DNA from: Nocardiopsis ansamitocini
GTDB taxonomy: Bacteria; Actinomycetota; Actinomycetes; Streptosporangiales; Streptosporangiaceae
Reading direction: 5' to 3'
Length of the DNA: 64,000 bases
NCBI RefSeq assembly: GCF_030268225.1
Contig: NZ_BSQG01000001.1
Span: 1,043,299 to 1,107,298 of the forward strand
A program made the position numbers and the translations under genes. The stretch's first letter is position 1. Each line of letters starts with the position of its first letter. This document shows, piece by piece, positions 3,093 to 59,892 of this stretch. The notes under the pieces were generated by a model. That model had not been told where the DNA came from and searched no databases. It saw only the letters and a list, made by a program, of their open reading frames with translations.

Positions 3093-6000
3093 CTAACTCG
3101 CCACGCGGGTGAGCTTCTGGCTGATCACCTGCGAGATCCCGTCCCCCTGCATCGTCACGCCGTACAGCGCGTCGGCCGCCTCCATCGTGCGCTTCTGGTG
3201 GGTGATGACGATGAGCTGGGAGGAACCACGAAGCTCCTCGAAGATGACCAACAGCCGCTGCAGGTTGGTGTCGTCCAACGCGGCCTCCACCTCGTCCATC
3301 ACGTAGAAGGGCGATGGTCTGGCCTTGAAGATCGCAGCGAGGAAGGCGACCGCGGTCAACGAGCGCTCACCGCCCGACAGCAGCGAGAGTCGTTTGACCT
3401 TCTTGCCCGGCGGGCGTGCCTCGACCTCGATACCGGTGGTGAGCATGTCGTCGGGGTCGGTGAGGATGAGCCTGCCGTCGCCTCCTGGGAACAGGCGGCC
3501 GAAGATCCCGGCGAACTCGCGCTCGACGTCCCCGTAGGCGGAGGTGAACACCTCCTGTACCCGATCGTCCACCTCCTTGACCACGGTGAGCAGGTCGCGA
3601 CGGGTCTTCTTGAGGTCGTCGAGCTGGGTGGTGAGGAACGTGTGACGCTCTTCGAGCGCGGCGAACTCCTCAAGGGCCAGTGGGTTGATCTTGCCGAGCT
3701 GGTTGAGCTGGCGCTCGGCGGCTCGCGCGCGCTTCTCCTGGACCTCACGCACGTAGGGAACCGCGACCGCCTCCGCCTCCGGGGCGTCGGCCGGTGGCGG
3801 AACCGGCACACGCGGACCGTATTCGGCGATGAGCACGTCGACCTCGGTCCCGTGCTCTTCCAGGGAACGGGTCTCCAACTGCTCCAGACGCAACCTGCGC
3901 TCAGCCCTGGCGACCTCGCTCCCGTGCACCACGTTGAGCAGCTTCTCCAGTTCCACCGAGAGCTCGCGCACCCGGGCCCGGACGGTCTTGAACTCGGCGT
4001 CACGAGCCGCGCGCTCGTCCTCTGCCGCACGGCGCTCGGCGTCGGCGGCCGCCAAGGACAATGCGACGCGGGCCAGTGCCTGGGCTGCGCCCTCGGCAAC
4101 GGCCTCCGCGACCAGTGCCTGCGCCCGGCGCTGCTCACGACGGCGCGCGGCCTGTTCGCGGGCCTGGCGTTCGGCGGCTGCCGCACGCTGGAGGGCCTCT
4201 GCCCGACCGGTGATCGAGCGGACACGCTCCTCGGATGTGCGCACCGTCAGACGCGCCTCCATCTCCACCGAGCGGAGGTGCGCGGCGCTGACGGCGAGCT
4301 CGTCCCGACGCGATGTGTCGGGGTCGTCGTCATCGACGGGCTCGGCCTCGGCCTGCTCAAGACGCTCCTCCATCGCGGCCAGCGCAAAAGCATCGGTCTC
4401 ACGGCCCTGAGCGGCCTTACCTGCCGCAGCGACGTAACGATCGACCTCAAGGGCTGCGGCACGGGCCTGACCGCCGAGTTTTCCAACCTGCTGGGCGACC
4501 TCGTTGCGGCGCTTGTCGGCGGCGCGGCGCCTGGTACCGACCGCCTCGACGGCAGCGGCTGCCTGAGCACGCTCGGCCTTGGCGTCGGCGAGCGCCGCGG
4601 CAGCACGCTTGCAGGTCTCGGTCGCCACCGAAAGACGCTCGGCCGCTTCGTCCACGGCGGCCTGGACCTCAAGCAGACTGGGGGCGGCGCCGGACCCGCC
4701 GTACACGAACGCCGCGCCGAAAACGTCGCCCTCGGGAGTGATCGCGCGCAGCGTGGGATCTGTCTTGACAACGTGGCGCGCGGTGGCGGCATCCGGGACC
4801 AACGCCGTGCGCGCCAGCAGGAGGGTCAGCGCGGCGCGCAGGAAATCCGGCGGTGTGAGTGCGTCCAGAGCGTACCTGGCGCCCTGTGGCAGGGACGGCC
4901 AGTCTGCACGCGAACCCGCGGCTCCTTCCCCCGAGCCCGCGACAACGATTCCTGCCCGTCCGGCGTCACCCGCTTTGAGAAGCTCCAGTGCCGCAGCGGC
5001 GTCATCGTGCGCGTGCACGGCCACCGCGTCGGAGGCCTCCCCCAAGGCGGCAGCGATGGCGGTCTCGGCCCCCGACTCGACCTGGATGAGGGTGGGCAGC
5101 GAACCGATCAGCCCGTGCACCCGTTCGGAATCGGCCAGCAGGGCAGCGGCACCGTCTTTGGGGTCGAGGCCGAGTTCGAGGGCCTCTTTGCGGGCTTCGA
5201 GCGCGGCACGCTCCCGTTCGGCCGTGCGCTCGGCGTCTCGCAGGTCGTTCAGGCCGGCCTCCGCAGCGGCGAGCTCGTCCTTGGCTTCGCCGTGCACGGC
5301 GTCGAGTTCGGTGTCGCCCAGGTCCAGCCCCTCGGCCTCCGCCCTGGCTTCCTCGTAGTCGAGTTGCGCCGCAGCGGCACGCTCGCGGGCCTCCTCGGCA
5401 GCCTGGTCGAGACGCTCGGTCTCCGCCCGCCCGGCGTCCAGCCGGCTGCGCAGGGAGTCGACCTTGCCCCGCAGTTTGGCCAAGCCCTCCCGGCGGTCTG
5501 CCGCTGCGCGAGCGGCAGCGGTGATGCGCTGTTCCTCGCCCCGCAGCGCGGCCTCGGCCTCGGCCCGCTCGAAGACGGTTCCTTCCAGTTCGGAACGGGC
5601 GGCGTCCAACCGGGCCTCCAGCTCCTCCTCCTGGGCGCGGACTTCTTCGGCTTCCGCCTCCAGTTCCTCGGGGTCGCGGCCGCGGCGCTCGTCGTTCGTT
5701 CCCGAGGCGAGATTGCGGTGGCGCTCGGCGGCGAGACTGGCAATGGAGTTGAGCCGCTCCTTGAGCCCGGAGAGACCGTGGTAGGTCTCGGAAACCCTGG
5801 CCAGCAGGGGTGCGGCCTCTGCGGCGGCCTCGTCCAACACGGTTTCACGGGCCTGGGCCTCGTTGAGGGCGTCCTCGGCCCGGGCCCGACGCTCGCGCAC
5901 CGCCGACTCGTCCGCCTCCTCCTTTGCAAGGTTCTCGCGCAGGGAGACGATGTCGTCGGCCAGCAGCCGAAGCCGGGAGTCGCGCAGGTCGGCCTGGATG

Positions 6001-12360: not shown

Positions 12361-14550
12361 TCAGGTTTTCTCCAGGTAATCCGCGCGCTCGCCGCTGAGC
12401 AGGTTGGCTAGCGCCTGGGCCAACGGCGGATGTCCCGACAGGTCGGGGTCGGCGTCGACGAAGGCCACCGCCTCGTCGCGGGCCTGACGGATGAGAGCCT
12501 CGTCGCGGAGGAGGGTGAGCATCCGCAACGAGGAACGGCGGCCCGACTGCGCGTCCCCCAGGACATCGCCCTCACGACGCTGTTCCAGGTCCACCCGTGA
12601 CAGCTCGAATCCGTCGGTGGTGGCCGCTACCGCTGCCAGCCGCTCCCTCGCCGGGCTCTCCTGCGCGGCGTCGGTGATGAGCAGGCACAGACCGGGAAGC
12701 TTTCCCCGGCCGACCCTCCCGCGCAACTGGTGGAGCTGGGAGACACCGAACCGGTCTGCGTCCATGATGGCCATCACCGTGGCGTTGGGGACGTCGACGC
12801 CCACTTCGATGACAGTGGTCGCCACGAGGACGTCGAGCTCGCCGGCGGCGAAGCGGCGCATGACGGCGTCCTTGTCATCGGGGGCGAGCCTGCCGTGCAG
12901 GGCTGCCACCCGGAGACCGGCGAGCGGCCCCTCCGCCAAGCGGGCGGCCACGTCCAGTACGGCCAGCGGCGGACGGCGGGGGACGGCATCCTCCGCTTCG
13001 GGCTCGACGGCGGCGTCCTCGGCATCGTTGTCACCGTCGCCGATGCGCGGGCACACGACGTACGCCTGACGTCCTTGGCCGACCTCTTCGGCGATACGGT
13101 CCCAGGCCCGGGACAGGAAGTGCGGCTTGTCCTGGGCGGGGACGACATGGGTGGCCACAGGTGCGCGGCCTTCGGGCAGCTGGGTGAGCGCCACGACGTC
13201 GAGGTCGCCGTAGACGGTCATAGCGACCGTGCGGGGAATGGGCGTGGCGGTCATGACCAGGACGTGCGGACGGCCCTCGACCGACTTCTCCCGCAACGCG
13301 TCGCGCTGCTCGACTCCGAAGCGGTGCTGCTCGTCCACCACGACCAGACCGAGGTCGGCGAAGGAGACCTGTTCCTGGAGCAGGGCGTGCGTACCGATGA
13401 CGATTCCAGCGGCGCCCGACGCCGCGTCGAGCAACGCCTCGCGTTTGGCCGCCGCCCCGAGCGACCCGGTGAGCAGGGCGAGGCGGGTCGCATGCTCCGC
13501 CCCGTCGAGCTGCCCCGCACGGGCGAGCCCCCCGAGCATGGCCCCAATGGAGCGGTGGTGCTGCTGGGCGAGCACCTCGGTGGGGGCGAGAAGGACCGCC
13601 TGGCCGCCCGCGTCCACCACCTGGAGCATGGCGCGCAGGGCGACGAGGGTCTTTCCCGCCCCGACGTCGCCCTGGAGCAGCCGGTGCATGGGGTGGGTGG
13701 AGGCCAGTCCGCCGGCGATGACGTCACCGACCTCGCGTTGGCCCTCTGTGAGGGTGAACGGCAGCGCCGCATCGAAGGCGTCCAACAGCCCTCCTGCGGA
13801 ACGCGGGCGCGACCGTGCAGGATGGCCCTGAGCGGCACGGCGGCGCTGGGCCAGGGCGACCTGGAGCACGAACGCCTCGTCCCATTTGAGACGGTGACGG
13901 GCCTTGGCGATGTCGGCCGAGTCCGCGGGACGGTGTACGAGGCGGTAGGCCTGCTCGAGGCCGATGAGACGACGGCCCGCGCGCAAGGCCGGTGGGAGCG
14001 GATCGGGTACCTCGTCCAAAGGCCCGAGAACCGTGGCCACGGCCTGACCGATCCGCCATGAGGGCATCTTCTCCGAGGCCGGATAGATGGGGATCAGTTC
14101 TTCGGCGAACGCCTTGGCGCGTTCCTGCTCGGCACCTTCTGCCTCAGGGAAGAGCTCGTAATCGGGATGGGCAAGCTGGCGCTTGCCCCGGTAGGCCGAG
14201 ACCTTGCCGGCGAAGAGGCCGCGTCGCCCGTAGGTGAGGCGCTGCTCGTGCCAGCCGACCTTGTGGAAAAAGGTCAGCGTAAGGTCGCCACGGCCGTCGG
14301 TGACCGTGACCTCGAACATTGACCCGCGACCGTTGCGCATCCGACGCTTGGCGGTTCTGCGCACCTCCGCGAGGACGGTGACCTGCTCCCCTTCGACCAG
14401 CCCTTCGAGGTCGGTGAGGTCTCCCCGGGTGCTGTACCGCCGCGGGTAATGGCGCAGCAGATCGCCGGCTGTGTGCAGGTCGAGTGCCGTTGCCAGGACC
14501 TTCGCAGTCTTGCCGAGCGTCTTGGTCAGCGGCTCGTCCAGGCTGGTCAC
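12361..14550 (-). CDS. recG: ATP-dependent DNA helicase RecG
   Basis: This 729-residue superfamily-2 helicase remodels stalled replication forks and Holliday junctions. An N-terminal OB-type wedge domain precedes the helicase core. The core has Walker A GDVGAGKTLVALRA, the DEQH box VVDEQHRFGVEQR, motif III MTATPIPRTVAM, and the C-terminal helicase block VATTVIEVGVDVPNAT with the HQLRGRVGRG motif. An Asp/Glu-rich insert (about residues 500-525) separates the two RecA-like lobes. The ATG at 14550 gives a normal family length. Confidence 0.97.
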   Translation of the reverse strand: MTSLDEPLTKTLGKTAKVLATALDLHTAGDLLRHYPRRYSTRGDLTDLEGLVEGEQVTVLAEVRRTAKRRMRNGRGSMFEVTVTDGRGDLTLTFFHKVGWHEQRLTYGRRGLFAGKVSAYRGKRQLAHPDYELFPEAEGAEQERAKAFAEELIPIYPASEKMPSWRIGQAVATVLGPLDEVPDPLPPALRAGRRLIGLEQAYRLVHRPADSADIAKARHRLKWDEAFVLQVALAQRRRAAQGHPARSRPRSAGGLLDAFDAALPFTLTEGQREVGDVIAGGLASTHPMHRLLQGDVGAGKTLVALRAMLQVVDAGGQAVLLAPTEVLAQQHHRSIGAMLGGLARAGQLDGAEHATRLALLTGSLGAAAKREALLDAASGAAGIVIGTHALLQEQVSFADLGLVVVDEQHRFGVEQRDALREKSVEGRPHVLVMTATPIPRTVAMTVYGDLDVVALTQLPEGRAPVATHVVPAQDKPHFLSRAWDRIAEEVGQGRQAYVVCPRIGDGDNDAEDAAVEPEAEDAVPRRPPLAVLDVAARLAEGPLAGLRVAALHGRLAPDDKDAVMRRFAAGELDVLVATTVIEVGVDVPNATVMAIMDADRFGVSQLHQLRGRVGRGKLPGLCLLITDAAQESPARERLAAVAATTDGFELSRVDLEQRREGDVLGDAQSGRRSSLRMLTLLRDEALIRQARDEAVAFVDADPDLSGHPPLAQALANLLSGERADYLEKT

Positions 14551-14941: not shown

Positions 14942-15127
14942 GTGGCTTCCGTCTGTGACGTTTGCAGCAAGGGACCAGGGTTCGGGAACAATGTTTCCCA
15001 CTCGCACCGCCGGACCCGTCGCCGCTGGAATCCCAACATCCAGACCGTGCGCACCCGCGTTGGTGGTACCCCCAAGCGCCTGAACGTGTGCACCTCCTGC
15101 CTCAAAGCGGGCAAGGTCGACCGCTAG
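14942..15127 (+). CDS. rpmB: 50S ribosomal protein L28
   Basis: This 61-residue basic ribosomal protein starts from a GTG at 14942 with GGAG upstream. It reads MASVCDVCSKGPGFGNNVSH and later RRRWNPNIQTVRTRVGGTPK, ending CTSCLKAGKVDR. Two CxxC pairs (CDVC and CTSC) mark the zinc-binding form. It is divergent from recG. Confidence 0.97.
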   Translation: MASVCDVCSKGPGFGNNVSHSHRRTRRRWNPNIQTVRTRVGGTPKRLNVCTSCLKAGKVDR

Positions 15128-15171
15128 CCCTCAGGGGTGGCAAGGTCCACGATTCAGTGAATCAGCGCGTT

Positions 15172-15200
15172 GAGCGCCGTGACGATCCGTCGCGGCGCTC
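15172..15200 (+). terminator. Terminator hairpin after rpmB
   Basis: GAGCGCCG (15172-15179) pairs with CGGCGCTC (15193-15200), followed by ATCGCTGTTT. It lies 45 bases past the rpmB stop. Confidence 0.55.
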
Positions 15201-15266
15201 ATCGCTGTTTCCCGTGCACGCCCTCCCCTGTCGCGCGCCGGTGAATGCCCGGTGCACGGCAGCTCC

Positions 15267-15324
15267 GGTCCGGGCTCTGCTGTTGGGAGCGGTCCGGGCT
15301 CTGCTGTTGGGAGCGGTCCGGGCT
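15267..15324. repeat. 24-bp tandem repeat, about 2.4 copies
   Basis: The unit GGTCCGGGCTCTGCTGTTGG plus GAGC occurs at 15267-15290 and exactly again at 15291-15314. A third copy is broken off after GGTCCGGGCT at 15324, where it meets the stop codon of the CBM2 gene. This looks like a local slippage duplication in the 3' untranslated part. Confidence 0.85.
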
Positions 15325-16072
15325 AGAGGCCGCAGGAGCGTCCGTTCAGGGAGCAGGAACTCGGGGCCTGGGCGCTGCCTTCGGCGCTGAAGTTGACCAC
15401 CGCCGACTCTCCGGGAGCGATCCCTCCCGTCCAGGAGGGCTGACGTACGACGATCCCCTCCCCAGTGCTCTCCCAGTCGCCGTTCCAGGCCGCGGTGATG
15501 TTGGCTCCGGAGAAACCGAGACGCAGTTCCCAGCCGTCGATGGCACTGGTGCCGTTGTTGACGATGGTGACCGAGCCCGTGAAGTTGTTGCTGGAGTGCG
15601 GGACCATGTCGTAGGAGACCTGGGTGCCACCGACCGCGACGGGCGGCTCGGGTGCGTCCTGCCGCTCGGGCTCGTCGGCACCCTCTTCCTCGGTTTCCCG
15701 CTCTTCGGCTTCGGGGCTCTGCGACACCTCGGCCGAGATCTCGGCCTGCAGGGAGGACCCGGGCTCCGGACCGCGCGAGGGCAGCGCCTCCGATCCCGGA
15801 GAGCCCCCGACCGCCCCCGATTCGGGGGCAGGCGCCCCCGGCCCGGAAGGAGACTCCGTGAAACGGAGGTAGATCTGGGTGGTGCTGTAGGCGAAGAGGA
15901 TCAGGGTAACCGTGACACCGGAGAGCAGGAGTACCCGAAACGGGCGGGGCGGGGGGACCCGCTTGGGAACGGTACTCCCCAGAACCTGTCCGACCGTGGT
16001 CAGCGCGCCGCCGTCGGGCTGTTCCGCACGGTGCGCTCCACGCTGTGGCCGTTCAACCCCGTGCCGCCCCAT
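15323..16072 (-). CDS. Membrane-anchored protein with a C-terminal cellulose-binding domain (CBM2)
   Basis: This 249-residue protein has an N-terminal cytoplasmic segment of about 48 residues, one transmembrane helix (VLLLSGVTVTLILFAYS), and a Pro/Glu/Ser-rich stalk of about 90 residues. The C-terminal domain of about 100 residues resembles CBM2, with NNFTGSVTIVNNG, GWELRLGFSGANITAAWNG, PSWTGGIAPGESAVVNFSAE and a CSLNGRSC end like that of the nearby cel6B. The first surface tryptophan of a typical CBM2 seems to be replaced (HSSNNF where cel6B has WGSGF). The arrangement predicts an outside-facing polysaccharide-binding module fixed to the membrane, not a secreted enzyme. No catalytic domain is present. 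ATG 16072 has AAAGG upstream. Substrate unproven. Confidence 0.78.
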   Translation of the reverse strand: MGRHGVERPQRGAHRAEQPDGGALTTVGQVLGSTVPKRVPPPRPFRVLLLSGVTVTLILFAYSTTQIYLRFTESPSGPGAPAPESGAVGGSPGSEALPSRGPEPGSSLQAEISAEVSQSPEAEERETEEEGADEPERQDAPEPPVAVGGTQVSYDMVPHSSNNFTGSVTIVNNGTSAIDGWELRLGFSGANITAAWNGDWESTGEGIVVRQPSWTGGIAPGESAVVNFSAEGSAQAPSSCSLNGRSCGL

Positions 16073-16223
16073 AGCCGTACCTTTCCCGGTTCGCGCGCCA
16101 TCGCGAGTCGCCGTCGCAGCCCCACCGCAAAAGCAGGGAGACGAGGGCAGAGCTTAGCGTGCCACACGCGGCAAAACCGGCATATTGTCTTCAGGTGACC
16201 GTGTCATGACCGAACGTGTCGAA

Positions 16224-17195
16224 TCAAGACGTGACGGAGAAGTGGTCCCACCCCCTCGCGTCGGACGGGGCACCATCCACGACGACCCCCTCTCCTTCGG
16301 CCACCCGCCCGATCACCGTCCAGCCGGGAGGCAGTACCGTCCCCTCAGGGAAGGTCGCGGCAAGGGCGTGGTCCTCACCGCCGGCGAGCATCAGATCCAC
16401 CGGGGCGCACTCGATGGCACCGAGCCGGGTCAGGGTCCGGACCGCATCGCTCAGGACCGCGGGGACGAGCAGCGCGGAACTTTGCAGTTCCACCCGGACG
16501 CGGGAGGCCGCGGCGATGTGTCCGAGATCCTGGACCAAGCCGTCGCTGACATCGAGCATGGCCGTGGCACCGAGTTCCGCGGCAGCAGGTCCCGCGGCGT
16601 AGGGCGGCGCGGGCCTGCGGTGGGCCGCACGGCACTCGGGGTGACCGACGGTGCTGTCGGCGAGGAACAGCGCGAGCCCCGCTGCGGAAAGACCGAGGTC
16701 GCCGATGACAGCGACGACGTCACCGGGGCGGGCCCCGTCTCGCCTCACCGCGGAAACACCTTGCAGGTCGCCCAGGGCCGTGATGGCCAAGGTGATGCTG
16801 TCGGAGCGCACGGTGTCCCCACCGGCCACGGTGGCACCGACAAGGGCGCACTCCGCACGTAGCCCTTCGGCGAACTCCTCGGCCCAGGAGACCGGAAGGC
16901 CGGCCGGGGCCGCGAAACCGAGCAGCAGTGCGGTGGGGCGGGCGCCCATGGCTGCGATATCGGCGAAGTTCTGCGCGGCTGCTTTGTGACCGATGTCGCG
17001 CGGACCGGACCAGTCCCGCCGAAAGTGCCGTCCCTCCACCAGCATGTCGGTGGTGGCCACCACTCTGCGATCGGGGGCCCGCACGATCGCGGCATCGTCG
17101 CCCGGGCCGAGGATTACGTCGTCTGTATGAGGGAATCTCGCGGTCATTCGGGCGATCAGCCCGAATTCACCGAGGTCCCCGATGGTGCTCAACAC
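16224..17195 (-). CDS. thiL: Thiamine-monophosphate kinase
   Basis: About 323 residues from the GTG at 17195 (MLSTIGDLGEFGLIARM), which has GAGG upstream; a much longer in-frame extension runs into the divergent gene's promoter. The enzyme makes thiamine diphosphate from thiamine monophosphate. Motifs of the PurM/ThiL fold are present: GPGDDAAIV, TTDMLVEGRHF, AAQNFADIAAMGARPT, VGATVAGGDTV, MLDVSDGLVQDLGHIA and GGEDHALAAT. It is divergent from the RAM-domain and DUF3515 genes, an actinobacterial neighbourhood. Confidence 0.95.
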   Translation of the reverse strand: MLSTIGDLGEFGLIARMTARFPHTDDVILGPGDDAAIVRAPDRRVVATTDMLVEGRHFRRDWSGPRDIGHKAAAQNFADIAAMGARPTALLLGFAAPAGLPVSWAEEFAEGLRAECALVGATVAGGDTVRSDSITLAITALGDLQGVSAVRRDGARPGDVVAVIGDLGLSAAGLALFLADSTVGHPECRAAHRRPAPPYAAGPAAAELGATAMLDVSDGLVQDLGHIAAASRVRVELQSSALLVPAVLSDAVRTLTRLGAIECAPVDLMLAGGEDHALAATFPEGTVLPPGWTVIGRVAEGEGVVVDGAPSDARGWDHFSVTS

Positions 17196-17343
17196 AGACC
17201 TCAGGGTACGGTGACGCTTCTGGCGCAGTGGTCTAGACCCACGCGGCATCACCCCGTCCGATGAGGCCCTGCCTCGCGGCTGCGGGCGGAGCCCGGTGGG
17301 AGGCCCACGCAGGATCGAACGCAATGTCGCAGAGGGGTTTTCC

Positions 17344-17577
17344 ATGGTGCGTGCCTACATTTTGATCCAGACAGAGGTCGGCCGGGCCGCTCAGGTCGCC
17401 CGGGAGATCGCCGGGATCGAAGGCGTGACCGAAGCCGAGGACGTCACGGGCCCCTACGATGTAGTGGTGCGAGCCCAAGCCGACGACGTGGACGCTCTCG
17501 GTCGCCTCGTGGTCGCCCGGATCCAACGGCTCGAAGGCATCGCCCGCACCCTCACCTGCCCGATCGTCAACATCTGA
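17344..17577 (+). CDS. Stand-alone Lrp/AsnC ligand-binding (RAM) domain protein
   Basis: At 77 residues it consists only of the effector-binding domain of Lrp/AsnC regulators (MVRAYILIQTEVGRAAQVAR, then VTGPYDVVVRAQADDVDALG, ending TLTCPIV). There is no helix-turn-helix. Such stand-alone RAM proteins usually oligomerise and bind amino acids; some partner with full regulators. The ATG at 17344 follows AGAGGGG, which supports this start over an earlier in-frame one at 17296. It lies just upstream of the DUF3515 lipoprotein gene. Confidence 0.88.
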   Translation: MVRAYILIQTEVGRAAQVAREIAGIEGVTEAEDVTGPYDVVVRAQADDVDALGRLVVARIQRLEGIARTLTCPIVNI

Positions 17578-41340: not shown

Positions 41341-43140
41341 ATGAGCAAAAACCCCCGTACCGTGGACAGACGTTCATGGGTGCGACGCTGCACAGCAGCC
41401 GCTTCCGCTCTGGCACTCGGCGGCACCATGGTGGCCGTCACCTCGGCTCCCGCCGCGGCCGCGACCGGTTGTGCGGTCGACTACCAGGTCAACGACTGGG
41501 GCTCGGGCTTCACGGCGAACGTCTCCATCAAGAACCTGGGCGACCCGGTGAACAACTGGACCCTGGGCTGGAGCTTCGCGGGCAACCAGCAGGTGACGAA
41601 CCTGTGGAACGGTTCACACACCCAGTCCGGCGGGAACGTCAGCGTCTCCAACGCCGGCCACAACGCATCCATCGCCTCGAACGGCACCGTCACCTTCGGG
41701 TTCAACGGGTCCTACTCGGGCACCAACGCCAAACCGACCACGTTCTCGCTGAACGGCGTGGTCTGCAACGGGAGCACCGACCCGGGTGAGCCCGGTGAAC
41801 CGGGCGAGCCGGGCGAGCCGGGCGAGCCGGGCGAGCCGGGCGAGCCGGGCAACCCCGGGAATCCGGGAAACGGCGACCGCGTGGACAACCCCTACGTGGG
41901 CGCGGACGTCTACGTGAACCCGGTCTGGTCGGCCAACGCAGCCGGCGAGCCGGGGGGCGCTGCCGTCGCAAACGAGCCGACGGGCGTCTGGCTGGACCGC
42001 ATCAGCGCCATCGAGGGCAACAACAGTCCCACGACCGGCAACATGGGGTTGCGCGACCACCTCGACGAGGCGGTCGAGCAGGCCGGTGACGATCCCCTGG
42101 TGTTCCAGGTCGTCATCTACAACCTCCCCGGCCGCGACTGCTCCGCGCTTGCCTCCAACGGCGAACTCGGCCCGGAGGAACTGGACCGCTACGAGAGCGA
42201 ATACATCGATCCGATCGCCGAGATCATGGCGGACCCGGCATACGCCGACCTGCGGATCGTCACGACGATCGAGATCGACTCCCTGCCGAACCTGGTGACC
42301 AATGTCAGCGGCCGCCCGACCGCGGTCGACGAGTGCGACACGATGCTGGCCAACGGCAACTACGTCAACGGTGTGGGCTACGCCCTGGCCCAACTGGGCG
42401 CCATCCCCAACGTCTACAACTACATCGACGCCGGCCACCACGGCTGGATCGGCTGGGAGGACAACTTCGGTCCCTCCGCCGACATCTTCTACGAGGCCGC
42501 CAACGCCAACGGGGCCTCCCCCGACGACGTGCACGGCTTCATCGCCAACACGGCCAACTACTCGGCGCTGAAGGAAGACCACTTCGCCATCGGGCAGACC
42601 GTCAACGGCCAGCAGGTGCGCCAGTCGAGCTGGGTCGACTGGAACAACTACGTCGACGAGCTGTCCTTCGCCCAGGCCCTGCGCCAGGAGCTGGTCTCCA
42701 CCGGCTTCGACTCCGGCATCGGCATGCTGATCGACACCTCCCGCAACGGCTGGGGCGGCGCCGCCCGGCCCACCGGTCCCGGCCCGACGACCAGCGTCGA
42801 CGCCTACGTCGAAGGTGGGCGCTACGACCGCCGCATCCACCCCGGCAACTGGTGCAACCAGGCCGGCGCCGGCCTGGGCGAGCGTCCCACCGCGGCTCCC
42901 GAGCCCGGTATCGACGCCTACGTGTGGATGAAGCCCCCGGGCGAGTCCGACGGTTCCAGCTCCCTCATCGACAACGACGAGGGCAAGGGCTTCGACCGGA
43001 TGTGCGACCCCACCTACACCGGCAACCCGCGCAACAACAACCACATGAGCGGCGCCCTGGCCAACGCGCCGGTCTCCGGTCACTGGTTCCCGGCGCAGTT
43101 CCAGGAACTGCTGCGCAACGCCTACCCGCCCGTCTCCTAG
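41341..43140 (+). CDS. cel6B: Exocellulase, GH6 cellobiohydrolase with N-terminal CBM2 (Cel6B)
   Basis: This 599-residue secreted enzyme releases cellobiose from the non-reducing ends of cellulose. The signal peptide (about 1-40) has an RRSWVRRC basic region and ends SAPAAAA. CBM2 occupies residues about 41-142, with YQVNDWGSGFTANVSIKNLG and a terminal disulfide pair. A linker of (Pro-Gly-Glu/Asn) repeats (about 148-176) is encoded by near-identical 9-bp units. The GH6 domain follows, with VIYNLPGRDCSALASNGE (Asp266), TTIEIDSLPNLV (Asp313, the position of the family's catalytic acid), HHGWIGWEDNFGP, DTSRNGWGG and WMKPPGESDG. Layout and sequence match T. fusca Cel6B. Regulation: CelR boxes and a promoter upstream. 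Confidence 0.97.
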   Translation: MSKNPRTVDRRSWVRRCTAAASALALGGTMVAVTSAPAAAATGCAVDYQVNDWGSGFTANVSIKNLGDPVNNWTLGWSFAGNQQVTNLWNGSHTQSGGNVSVSNAGHNASIASNGTVTFGFNGSYSGTNAKPTTFSLNGVVCNGSTDPGEPGEPGEPGEPGEPGEPGEPGNPGNPGNGDRVDNPYVGADVYVNPVWSANAAGEPGGAAVANEPTGVWLDRISAIEGNNSPTTGNMGLRDHLDEAVEQAGDDPLVFQVVIYNLPGRDCSALASNGELGPEELDRYESEYIDPIAEIMADPAYADLRIVTTIEIDSLPNLVTNVSGRPTAVDECDTMLANGNYVNGVGYALAQLGAIPNVYNYIDAGHHGWIGWEDNFGPSADIFYEAANANGASPDDVHGFIANTANYSALKEDHFAIGQTVNGQQVRQSSWVDWNNYVDELSFAQALRQELVSTGFDSGIGMLIDTSRNGWGGAARPTGPGPTTSVDAYVEGGRYDRRIHPGNWCNQAGAGLGERPTAAPEPGIDAYVWMKPPGESDGSSSLIDNDEGKGFDRMCDPTYTGNPRNNNHMSGALANAPVSGHWFPAQFQELLRNAYPPVS

Positions 43141-43273: not shown

Positions 43274-43612
43274 ATGGCCGGCGTGGTCAAGTTCAACGTC
43301 CTGACCGTTCCCGAAGACGCGGGAAGGACCCTGGAGGAGCGGTTCGCCAAGCGGGCCGGGCTGGTGGAGGACCAGCCCGGTTTCGAAGAGTTCCAGCTCC
43401 TGCGGCCGGTGGAAGGCATCGACAAGTACCTCGTGTACACGCGCTGGCGCTCGGAGGAGGACTTCCAGAACTGGCTGAAGAGCCGATCGTTCCAGCAGGG
43501 CCATGCCGGCACGGCGAAGGACGCCGGCCAGGCCGGCCACGGCACGCCCGCGGCGACAGGCAGCGAGATCTGGGGGTTCGAAGTCGTCCAGCGGGTCACC
43601 GGCAAGGAGTAG
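43274..43612 (+). CDS. ABM-fold (antibiotic biosynthesis monooxygenase-like) protein
   Basis: This 112-residue protein has the dimeric alpha-beta barrel features: VVKFNVLTVPEDAGRTLEER, VEDQPGFEEFQLLRPVEG and DKYLVYTRWRSEEDFQNWL. An Ala/Gly/Thr-rich insert leads to a last strand (GSEIWGFEVVQRV). The fold includes haem-degrading (IsdG-like) and quinone-forming monooxygenases. Relation to haem is possible but no substrate can be read. The ATG at 43274 follows GAGAGGTG. It sits after the cel6B terminator and is probably an independent unit. Confidence 0.84.
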   Translation: MAGVVKFNVLTVPEDAGRTLEERFAKRAGLVEDQPGFEEFQLLRPVEGIDKYLVYTRWRSEEDFQNWLKSRSFQQGHAGTAKDAGQAGHGTPAATGSEIWGFEVVQRVTGKE

Positions 43613-43721
43613 CACCGGTTGGCGGAACCGCTCCACCGCCGACCACAGGATCGGGCGTGCGCGCGGCGGCGCCCGATCTGCGATGCTAGAGCGGTCCCCG
43701 ACCACGCAGAAAGGCCGCACT

Positions 43722-44516
43722 GTGTCCACGCCCGCGCCCAAAGCAGCCCGCTTGCGTGCGCGTGGGCGGCGCAGACGTCGCCGCGCAGCCCCTTTGGCCA
43801 TGTTGTCGGGTCTGGCGCTGGCCACCGGAGGCCTCGGTGTACTGATCAGCGGTGGACTGGATCCGGAGCGGTTCGCCCCGCACTCACCGGTTGCGGCCTC
43901 CTCCCCGTCGGAGCGTGTGCCCGGATCGGTGTTTCGGCCGCCCATACCCGCGCCGTCGCCCACTCCGGTGCTCTCCCGCTCGGTGGTCGACGAGGTCACC
44001 GAAGGCAGCGGTGACCTGAAGGTGGTCAAGGGAAAGAGTGAGGTCTACGGTTCGGGGCCGCTCAAGCGTTTCATCGTCGAGGTCGAGGACGGACTTCCCG
44101 GAGAGGCCGACGACTTCGCCGCGGCGGTCGAGAGGATTCTCGGCGACGAACGCAGCTGGGGTCATGAGGGGGCGATGTCCTTCCAACGGGTGGACTCGGG
44201 CAGCGTGGACTTTCGCGTGTCCCTCGCCGCCCCGACCACCGTGGACGAGCACTGCGCTCCGCTCAGGACCAACGGATACGTCTCCTGCCAGCAGGGCGAC
44301 CGCGCGGTGATCAACCAGAACCGCTGGGTGTCGGCGGTACCGCACTTCGACGGGGACCTGGAGAGCTATCGGGTCTACGTCATCAACCACGAAGTCGGCC
44401 ATGCACTGGGGCACGGCCATGTGGACTGCCCCAAGGACGGCGTGAACGCACCCGTCATGCAGCAGCAGACATTCGGGCTCCAGGGGTGCGAGCGCAATGG
44501 CTGGGTCCACCCCTGA
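43722..44516 (+). CDS. DUF3152 membrane-anchored protein with a zincin-like motif
   Basis: This 264-residue protein has a very basic N-terminus ([14 protein letters not shown]), one transmembrane segment (LAMLSGLALATGGLGVLISG), a Pro/Ser-rich stalk, and a C-terminal domain ending with HEVGHALGHGH, a metalloprotease-type zinc motif (HExxHxxGxxH). Upstream are GSGPLKRFIVEVEDGL and INQNRWVSAVPHFDGDLESY, typical of DUF3152. Protease activity is possible but unshown. The GTG at 43722 follows AAAGG, which decides it over longer frames. Confidence 0.87.
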   Translation: MSTPAPKAARLRARGRRRRRRAAPLAMLSGLALATGGLGVLISGGLDPERFAPHSPVAASSPSERVPGSVFRPPIPAPSPTPVLSRSVVDEVTEGSGDLKVVKGKSEVYGSGPLKRFIVEVEDGLPGEADDFAAAVERILGDERSWGHEGAMSFQRVDSGSVDFRVSLAAPTTVDEHCAPLRTNGYVSCQQGDRAVINQNRWVSAVPHFDGDLESYRVYVINHEVGHALGHGHVDCPKDGVNAPVMQQQTFGLQGCERNGWVHP

Positions 44517-57180: not shown

Positions 57181-59892
57181 TCAAAGAGCGGTCGCGGTCT
57201 CTCCCCCGACAAGGGCCTCGACTCCGTCAGCGGGCATGGGCCGGGCGACGAGAAAACCCTGACCGTAGGCGCACCCCATCGCGCGCAGCCGGTCCAGTTG
57301 ACGCGGGTGTTCGATCCCTTCGGCCGTCACCTGCATCCCCAGGTCCTGGCCGAGCCGGATGATCGTCTGGGTCAACAGCGTCACGGTGCCGTCCCCGCCC
57401 AGATCGCGGATGAACGAACGGTCGATCTTGATCTCGTCCACGCGGAGCTGACGCAGATGTGCCAATGAGGCGTAGCCCATGCCGAAATCGTCGATGGCCA
57501 GACGCACCCCGAGGTCGCGCAACTCGGCGAGGCGGTCCACCGCCTGGCCGGGGTTCTCCAGCAGGACCTCCTCGTCGACCTCCATCGTCAGGACATCCGC
57601 GTTGAGCGCGCACTCGGCGAGCACACCGGCCACGGTCTCGACGAACCGCGGCGACAGCACCTGCTTGACCGAGATGTTCACCGAGAGGCGGATGTCCAAC
57701 CCGGTGGTCCCGCGCCAGACCGCTACCTTCTGGCACGCCTCGCGCAGGATCCACTCCCCCAGAGGCACGATCAGTCCTGACTCCTCCGCAGGCGCGATGA
57801 AGTCGTCGGGCGGGACGAGTTGGCCGTTCTTGCGCCAGCGCACCAGCGCCTCCACTGCGGTGACCCGCGAGGTCTCCAGGTTCACCACCGGCTGGTACTC
57901 CAGCGTGAAGGCGTTGTCGGCGAGGGCCTGACGCAACTCGGTCTGCAACTCCAACCGCCCCACGACCTTGGCGTGCATGTGAGCGGCGTAGAGCTCCAGG
58001 CGTCCCCCTCCGCCCTCCTCCTTTGCGCGGGCCATTGCCATGTCGGCGTTGCGCAGCAGTTCCCCGCTGCCGGTCTCGGGAGCGGCGAAGGCGACCCCCG
58101 CACTCGCCGTCAGCACCACCTCGCGGTCGGCCACCTGGAACGGCTCTCCCCCGATGACCCGGATCAACCGCTCCGCGAGGTCGACCACGTTGTCCGCGCG
58201 CGGACTGTCCTCGATGAGGACCGCGAACTCGTCACCCCCCCAGCGGGCAAGTGTGTCTCCCGCACCCATCGTGGCGCGCAGCCTCCGGCCGGCCTGGGCC
58301 AGGAGATAGTCACCGAAGGTGTGCCCGGCGGAGTCGTTGACGGCGGTGAACCCGTCGAGATCCAGGAAGATCGCGGCGATCTCGGTCTTGGGTTGGCCTT
58401 CCTCGGGCTCGGTGCGCCGGCTCAGGACCTCCCTGGTCCGCTCTTCCAGGTAGGCACGGTTGGGCAGACCGGTGACACCGTCGTGGAAGGTGAGGTGGTC
58501 CACCTGCTTCTGCAGCTCCACCTGGGCGCTGATGTCCCGGGTGGTGAAGAGCAGTCGCTTGGGCTCACCCGGACGCTCGTAGACCGAGGCCGTGGAGGTG
58601 GTGTGGCGCCAGGTCCCGTCGGCCGCACGGACCCGGACCCTGAGGTGGATGCCGTCTCCGGAGTCCCTGCGGAAGGTCGCCATGGCCCGTTTCACCTGCG
58701 GGAGGTCCTCTGGGTGGATCAACGCCGTGACAGGGTCGGCAAGGATGTCGTCGAGACGGTAGCCGAACGCCTCCGCGGTGCCGGGACTGAGGGAGAAGAT
58801 CCTGCCGTCGTCGTCCAGGATCAGAATGACGTCGCCACTGTGCTTGGCCAATTCGTGGAAGTGCCGCTCCCTGCTGTGCACCATCCGGCTGAGGGTGGAG
58901 TTCTCTTCGAGAAGTCCCAGCAGGCGCACCAGAAGGACCAGGACCGCGGACCCCGCCACGAGGGGCAGGACCGGGGCAACCCCGTTCACCCACAAACCGC
59001 CCACCGTCAACGCCACCGTGGCGATCGCCAATGCGAGCGAGGCGGCGATCTCGGGGGCGAACCGGTAGAGGCCCCGTCCGGTGATGCGGCGCGGCGCGGC
59101 TCCGGTCCTGCCCAGGATGAGCCAGGGCAGTCCCGCCAACAGCGCGAAACCGAACAGGCGCACCGGGTACTCGATCCCCCCTGCCGGAGCCTCCCCGGTC
59201 AACCGGGTGATGGTGCCGATCAGGTCCGCGCCGCAGATCACGATGAAGGCGCCCATTGCCAGCAGGACCGCGCGCCGGGTGCTGTGCGGCGAGGTGAACA
59301 CCAGCGGCGCCAGGAAGCACAGGACCGCGATGTCGGCCACCGGGTAGACCAGGGCGAACGCCACGAAGCCCGACCCCTCCCCGAGGTCGCGGTAAAGGGG
59401 CTGGAACAGCACCAGCCACACCACGGCGAAGACCGCTGCGGCACAGACGTAGCTGTCGGTCAGGTGGCGCACCACTGTCCGCGCCCCGTGGGGCAGTGGC
59501 GCGAACTTCAAGAAACCGAGGAAGAAGAGCGGAAGCGCGATCAACGAGAACAGATCGCCGAAGGTGAGCGAGAAAGCCGCTGCGGGACCGAACAGGCCGG
59601 TGACGCCGTTGGTAATCGCCCCCGCACACCAGGCCAGGGCGGAAAACCCGAAAAAGCGCAGTCCAGCGGCACTGTCGGCACCATCGGCGCTGGCCTGGCC
59701 GTCATCGGCGATCGAATGCAGCCGGGCGGCGTAGAGCATCGAGATGCCCGCGAGCCCTGCCGCGATCGCGGTGGGCCAGGTCCCCGCCCAGACGGTCAAC
59801 GAGATCCCCTGGACGGGGAACAGCGTGCCGAGGGCATAAACAGCGGTGACGATCAGGATGGCAGCGAACCAGACGCGCGAATCGCTCTTCAC
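57181..59892 (-). CDS. Membrane PAS-GGDEF-EAL protein (c-di-GMP synthesis and/or breakdown)
   Basis: This 903-residue protein has about ten transmembrane helices (residues about 8-330), a PAS sensor (about 340-460, ILILDDDGRIFSLSPGTAEAFG region), a GGDEF domain (VTGLPNRAYLEER, DLDGFTAVNDSAGHTFGDYL, LARWGGDEFAVLIED) and an EAL domain. The EAL domain shows VEALVRWRKNGQLVPPDDF, SVNISVKQVLSPRF, AIDDFGMGYASLAHLRQLRV, DEIKIDRSFI and TAEGIEHPRQL. Both active-site motifs are intact. The inhibitory RxxD site before GGDEF is missing its Arg (GAGD). The layout resembles Streptomyces RmdA/RmdB. The GTG at 59892 follows GGAGGGA. Confidence 0.93.
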   Translation of the reverse strand: MKSDSRVWFAAILIVTAVYALGTLFPVQGISLTVWAGTWPTAIAAGLAGISMLYAARLHSIADDGQASADGADSAAGLRFFGFSALAWCAGAITNGVTGLFGPAAAFSLTFGDLFSLIALPLFFLGFLKFAPLPHGARTVVRHLTDSYVCAAAVFAVVWLVLFQPLYRDLGEGSGFVAFALVYPVADIAVLCFLAPLVFTSPHSTRRAVLLAMGAFIVICGADLIGTITRLTGEAPAGGIEYPVRLFGFALLAGLPWLILGRTGAAPRRITGRGLYRFAPEIAASLALAIATVALTVGGLWVNGVAPVLPLVAGSAVLVLLVRLLGLLEENSTLSRMVHSRERHFHELAKHSGDVILILDDDGRIFSLSPGTAEAFGYRLDDILADPVTALIHPEDLPQVKRAMATFRRDSGDGIHLRVRVRAADGTWRHTTSTASVYERPGEPKRLLFTTRDISAQVELQKQVDHLTFHDGVTGLPNRAYLEERTREVLSRRTEPEEGQPKTEIAAIFLDLDGFTAVNDSAGHTFGDYLLAQAGRRLRATMGAGDTLARWGGDEFAVLIEDSPRADNVVDLAERLIRVIGGEPFQVADREVVLTASAGVAFAAPETGSGELLRNADMAMARAKEEGGGGRLELYAAHMHAKVVGRLELQTELRQALADNAFTLEYQPVVNLETSRVTAVEALVRWRKNGQLVPPDDFIAPAEESGLIVPLGEWILREACQKVAVWRGTTGLDIRLSVNISVKQVLSPRFVETVAGVLAECALNADVLTMEVDEEVLLENPGQAVDRLAELRDLGVRLAIDDFGMGYASLAHLRQLRVDEIKIDRSFIRDLGGDGTVTLLTQTIIRLGQDLGMQVTAEGIEHPRQLDRLRAMGCAYGQGFLVARPMPADGVEALVGGETATAL

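Follow-up and report, generated by a model that had tools for sequence, protein, structure and literature searches.

We identified a gene directly downstream of thiL that, judged by sequence comparison, belongs to a family of membrane proteins with a CBM2 ectodomain, present in single copy and inherited vertically. Several properties of this family can be read from the sequences: the order of its parts, a CBM2 fold in the predicted model, the thiL-adjacent site, the absence of the cellulose-binding platform from most members, and a peak of conservation in the transmembrane (TM) and juxtamembrane region. We tentatively favor, at close to even confidence, the explanation that a CBM2 domain was exapted as the ectodomain of a conserved envelope protein, whose likeliest role would be that of a wall-reading or positioning adaptor and not of a plant-fiber anchor.

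The gene occupies 15323..16072 on the minus strand of the window (the whole 64,000-nucleotide stretch analyzed here), with its stop codon at 15323-15325, and encodes a predicted single-pass membrane protein of 249 aa. All four of its parts are given on the minus strand. The predicted cytosolic N-terminus (residues 1-45; 15938..16072) carries the motifs R11 G12 x H14 R15 x E17 and S33-T-V-P-x-x-V39-x-P-P-R43, whose named positions are columns at least 95% conserved in 70 orthologs. It is followed by the TM segment and its flank (residues 46-72; 15857..15937), where the motif SG...LFxYSTTQIYLxF and the conservation peak (mean pairwise identity 0.78) are found, by an acidic, Pro-rich linker (residues 73-147; 15632..15856) that is variable (0.31), and by the CBM2-fold domain (residues 148-249; 15326..15631).

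A single 19-residue hydrophobic segment was detected by hydropathy in the window protein (residues 47-65; mean 1.82, compared with 0.43 for the runner-up elsewhere), and exactly one above-threshold segment was present in 70/70 orthologs. Residues 1-45 contain 7 K/R versus 3 D/E, and the linker contains 18 D/E, 3 K/R and 13 Pro. Hydropathy and charges agree on a predicted topology with the N-terminus inside, one TM segment and the CBM outside. The same order of parts had been proposed in a sequence-only reading of this DNA and was borne out by the ORF, hydropathy, charge counts and Pfam, with the inward N-terminus as a prediction. That reading was also right that the protein has no catalytic domain: none was found in the window protein by Pfam and NCBIfam scans, and an NCBIfam match to exoglucanase CbhB was limited to C-terminal positions 888-995 of the model. 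Orthologs occur at 72 other loci (71 genomes), with an open frame in 70/72, which rules out a chance ORF. No promoter or terminator site was detected by scans of 15100-16260. By eye, a direct repeat of ~24 bases (GGTCCGGGCTCTGCTGTTGGGAGC) was seen at window positions 15270-15330, directly 3′ of the gene, in the spacer before rpmB.

Pfam CBM_2 (PF00553) matched residues 151-247 of the window protein (E 5.7e-17; 62.4 bits versus a cut-off of 24). An AF2 model of the domain, calculated from a three-sequence alignment (the window domain, a Thermobifida fusca relative (L040) and the CBM2 domain found in the GH6 enzyme of the window), had a mean pLDDT of 86.1. Its best PDB matches were CBM2 modules, the top one being 6qfs, a variant of the Cellulomonas fimi (Cex) CBM2a (Z 13.9; rmsd 1.9 over 100 residues; Foldseek E 2.1e-08). 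The comparison of a predicted structure with CBM2 structures thus upheld the fold assigned from sequence. Matches of the domain model to other folds (AP2 mu, integrin) were attributed to the common sandwich. The full-length AF2 model (pLDDT 62.2) was confident in the CBM2 domain only, and the N-terminus was not reliably modelled.

The cellulose-platform residues of CBM2a are W17, W54 and W72, as given in an excerpt of PMC5935602. In the alignment with Cex (1exg), W17 corresponds to S160, W54 to W196 and W72 to W214, all site assignments being based on MAFFT alignments. The window protein therefore has two of the three platform Trp and lacks W17, in agreement with the earlier remark that one surface aromatic appeared lost. 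The domain also contains the core Trp W181. The same excerpt (PMC5935602) describes CelStrep, a cellulase whose CBM2 carries two of these Trp, W17 and W54.

To delineate the family, residues 1-129 of the protein, excluding the CBM2 domain, were searched against 341 genomes of the same family (E <= 1e-8). Matches were found in 72/341 genomes (own included) and 18/68 genera, at one place per genome except for two in G141. The source organism of the window is an actinobacterium related to Thermobifida, and Thermobifida fusca carries an ortholog (L040). The 72 loci fetched from 71 other genomes gave 73 sequences together with the window, of which 70 were kept: L135, with a broken frame, was not aligned, and the counts exclude both the truncated L080 and L110, which is the second G141 copy. 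The truncation in L080 and the break in L135, both within the ortholog gene, may reflect sequencing error or a pseudogene. No paralog of the N-terminal 75 residues was detected within the own genome (next best E 0.21). Over 2415 pairs, distances between the proteins of this family tracked RecG distances with r 0.90 and ThiL distances with r 0.85, which, together with the fixed locus, implies vertical inheritance in place. A literature search not covering subscription papers gave, among the papers listed and judged by title and the start of the abstract, none on this thiL-adjacent CBM2 membrane family, which does not prove the family undescribed.

Upstream of the gene lies thiL, encoding thiamine-phosphate kinase (16224..17345, minus strand; NF004351, 426.5 bits versus a cut-off of 324). 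The convergent gene at 14942..15127 (plus strand; GTG start picked by eye), which we take to be rpmB for ribosomal protein L28, was matched in 71/72 orthologous loci. Further downstream is the recG helicase gene (12361..14550, minus strand; NF008167, 1134.2 bits versus a cut-off of 995). Five neighbors were assigned by Pfam, to ThiL, RecG, AsnC-like, DUF3515 and DUF3105. The order DUF3515, AsnC-like, thiL, CBM2 membrane gene, rpmB and recG recurs across the 72 fetched loci, except that rpmB was unmatched in L092, and AsnC and DUF3515 were unmatched in L120 and L124, both at contig ends. Elsewhere in the window, we observed a GH6 enzyme with an N-terminal CBM2 that has His at the W72 site (41341-43140, plus strand), an adjoining gene for a DUF3152 protein (43503-44516, plus strand) and a PAS-GGDEF-EAL protein (57181-59892, minus strand).

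Occurrence of the platform Trp across the family was limited. Among 70 orthologs, Trp was present at W17 in 1, at W54 in 24 and at W72 in 11, and 46 had none of the three; when aromatics within one column were counted, none was found in 45/70. In the largest genus (g76), all 39 members were without any platform Trp. The platform columns ranked 66, 89 and 97 of 99 in conservation, compared with W181, W200, C240 and C247, which were invariant (70/70). Pfam CBM_2 was above the cut-off in 7/7 orthologs scanned, Trp-less ones included (36.2-50.1 bits). The eight other CBM2s of the own genome had Trp at W17 (8/8), W54 (8/8) and W72 (6/8). Two of these eight ordinary CBM2s also had Trp at the W200 site, so W200 is not unique to the family, and a C240-equivalent Cys was likewise present in 2/8. 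No relation was found in the whole set between kept platform Trp and the number of CBM2 places per genome (r 0.02). A single CBM_2 place, presumed to be this gene, was detected in each of six genomes (G006, G106, G144, G158, G169 and G254).

Ancestral states were assigned by parsimony on a RecG tree that we rooted on L142. For the W54 site, a Trp ancestor with five losses was obtained, compared with 20 changes on average when labels were shuffled. For W72, a non-Trp root with four changes was preferred over a Trp ancestor, which requires twelve losses. The root state of W17 was ambiguous, and Trp was present there in L142 (G081) only. As reconstructed from these sequences, repeated loss is clear for the W54 site only. 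In the RecG clade of the window (the window, L071, L073, L074, L076, L077 and L078), both W54 and W72 were present in 7/7 members, and the erosion of the platform thus belongs to other branches. Together with the two-Trp CBM2 of CelStrep, as excerpted from PMC5935602, this suggests that the branch of the window may still bind polysaccharide.

Conservation is highest in and next to the membrane. Mean pairwise identity among the 70 orthologs was 0.78 in the TM segment, 0.71 in the juxtamembrane part, 0.58 in the first 23 residues, 0.53 in the CBM2 domain and 0.31 in the linker, and columns at least 95% conserved numbered 13/27, 9/22, 5/23, 19/102 and 0/75, respectively. Median regional dN over gene dS (2399 pairs) was 0.24 for the TM segment, 0.50 for residues 2-45, 0.66 for the CBM2 domain and 1.34 for the linker; at this G+C content, the Nei-Gojobori estimates carry a bias and absolute dN/dS figures are unreliable. 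The CBM2 domain (identity 0.53) evolves faster than either ThiL (0.69) or RecG (0.75), which also fits weak constraint and in this respect counts against exaptation.

Possible relatives were also detected beyond the N-terminal matches. In a further set of 30 genomes without such a match, thiL was found in 28; all of these loci except that of G036, which lies at a contig end, were fetched, leaving 27. In 17/27 loci, an ORF directly downstream of thiL, on the same strand, matched the family profile and had a CBM2-like end. By eye, ten of these 17 start with MGRH, and in several the membrane segment is preceded by a low-complexity stretch of some 300-400 residues. Ten ORFs (nine of the 17 and L178) were scanned with Pfam: CBM_2 was above 24 bits in four (24.6, 30.9, 37.2 and 69.9), weaker in four (13.5 to 22.1 bits) and unlisted for L192 and L178. 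C240 and C247 were present in 17/17 relatives, the core Trp in 10/17 and Trp at the W200 site in 11/17; W17 and W54 were found in 4/17 and 1/17. Kinship of these 17 ORFs to the family is suggested by their location, the arrangement of their parts and their CBM2-like end, the N-terminal sequence being too diverged for proof. The longer ones (up to ~680 aa) were considered as receptor kinases, a candidate that we rejected: in the ten ORFs, Pfam at E up to 0.5 gave CBM_2 or nothing convincing. L184, L193, L195 and L196 had no candidate by their short thiL-rpmB distance, and L173, L177 and L199 had none among listed ORFs of at least 150 aa, so that a shorter ORF could escape; L173 and L184 are from other families of the same order. 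The sequence of L194 was too short to judge. Two further thiL-adjacent ORFs (3723-5042, minus strand, in L178; 1603-2427, plus strand, in L185) have an MGRH start, a membrane segment and a linker with no CBM2 seen, and ectodomain loss is a possible explanation.

The sequence-only reading had regarded the protein as a surface module that could hold cells to plant fiber. Such an anchor, in which the CBM2 would have kept its binding to cellulose or xylan and would fasten the cell to it, is unlikely as a family-wide role: all three platform Trp are missing in 46/70 orthologs, including 39/39 in g76, their columns are among the less conserved of the domain, kept Trp are unrelated to the CBM2 count, and the gene is retained in six genomes that have just one CBM2 match each and is fixed beside thiL and not beside enzymes. 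For the clade of the window, where W54 and W72 are retained in 7/7 members (here as W196 and W214 on a predicted CBM2 fold), genomes have 9 to 16 CBM2 places and the window itself encodes a GH6-CBM2 cellulase, the idea may still hold, and we consider fiber anchoring in at least this clade a minority possibility, doubtful on balance. The binding partner could instead be a glycan of the organism's own wall, such as a cellulose-like apical glucan, an idea that overlaps our preferred explanation and that we rate as unlikely taken by itself. Streptomyces produces such a glucan via CslA and GlxA, as reported in the excerpted text of PMC11022532, and the gene is held at a fixed site outside polysaccharide-use loci. 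However, a platform for flat glucan is mostly missing, and none of the 72 genomes gave a match to PF09118, the galactose-oxidase domain of GlxA type, in a search in which no control genome matched; a PF09118 search over 148 class members gave matches in 37, including one member of the same family. Based on the search for this domain, we do not favor an own cellulose-like glucan that depends on CslA and GlxA.

Two other explanations concern the membrane part. The layout predicted here, an inward N-terminus, one TM segment, a linker and a C-terminal CBM, is shared with RsgI anti-sigma factors of Clostridium thermocellum, as described in the excerpt of PMC4711584, and conservation peaks in the juxtamembrane/TM part, as might suit a polysaccharide-sensing TM signal protein. 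However, the cytosolic part is ~45 aa, compared with ~165 in RsgI (same excerpt, PMC4711584), no RsgI_N match was found by Pfam (E up to 1), and a sigma-factor gene was absent among the five Pfam-scanned neighbors, four of which (ThiL, RecG, AsnC-like and DUF3515) recur in orthologous loci. With a sensor face that is mostly unconserved as well, an RsgI-like role seems quite improbable. Still less probable, in our estimate, is that the protein is secreted and that the hydrophobic segment is a cleaved signal peptide and no anchor. Only one hydrophobic segment is present, and signal peptides of actinobacteria can be long; but 45 residues with conserved motifs precede this segment, which is 0.78 identical across genera and ends in the conserved YSTTQIYL, and an AXA-like site was not evident by eye.

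For the exapted CBM2 ectodomain that we prefer, the following mechanism can be envisaged. The protein would stay in the membrane with its N-terminal end inside, and the STVPxxVxPPR and YSTTQIYLxF motifs, together with the membrane helix, would touch a fixed partner or self-associate. By way of the acidic linker, presumably flexible, the CBM2-fold domain would reach into the cell wall and there may contact a target, either an envelope glycan or a protein but not crystalline cellulose, via surfaces outside the old Trp strip. A more specific history, which we offer tentatively and consider somewhat less likely than not, is that the CBM2 was captured early in this actinobacterial family, lost its platform stepwise and now forms the part of a housekeeping receptor or adaptor that faces the wall. 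The business end would then be the near-invariant juxtamembrane/TM motif, and in some genera the cytosolic side would have grown to some 300-400 low-complexity residues.

A Pfam match alone would name these proteins cellulose-binding. If the preferred explanation is true, dozens of species hold a conserved envelope protein concealed by this label, and the family represents a natural series of a carbohydrate-binding module losing its ligand face and yet being retained for another use. The gene would also offer a defined entry point to envelope biology in these actinomycetes.

CBM2 modules can acquire other functions, as known from the copper-binding CBM2s of cellulose-active LPMOs, in which a second function was gained on the side opposite the cellulose face (PMC12703677, in excerpt). 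Those modules are tethered to LPMOs and place copper opposite the cellulose-binding surface, as given there, whereas in the present family the CBM2-domain columns at least 95% conserved in the 70 orthologs include neither Met nor His. RsgI anti-sigma-I factors with CBM ectodomains resemble the predicted layout of the window protein in having a cytosolic N-terminus, one TM segment and an extracellular C-terminal CBM (PMC4711584, excerpted text), and differ from it in that the window protein lacks an RsgI_N match and its scanned neighbors lack a sigma-factor gene. With the CBM2a modules (PF00553) of cellulases from actinobacteria, such as Cex of Cellulomonas fimi, the domain shares fold, length, the core Trp and the C-terminal LNGxxC. 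Compared to these modules, the window protein has an N-terminal membrane anchor in place of an enzyme; compared to Cex CBM2a in particular, W17 is lost in the window protein, the platform Trp are gone in many relatives, and the family contains an invariant second C-terminal Cys, C240.
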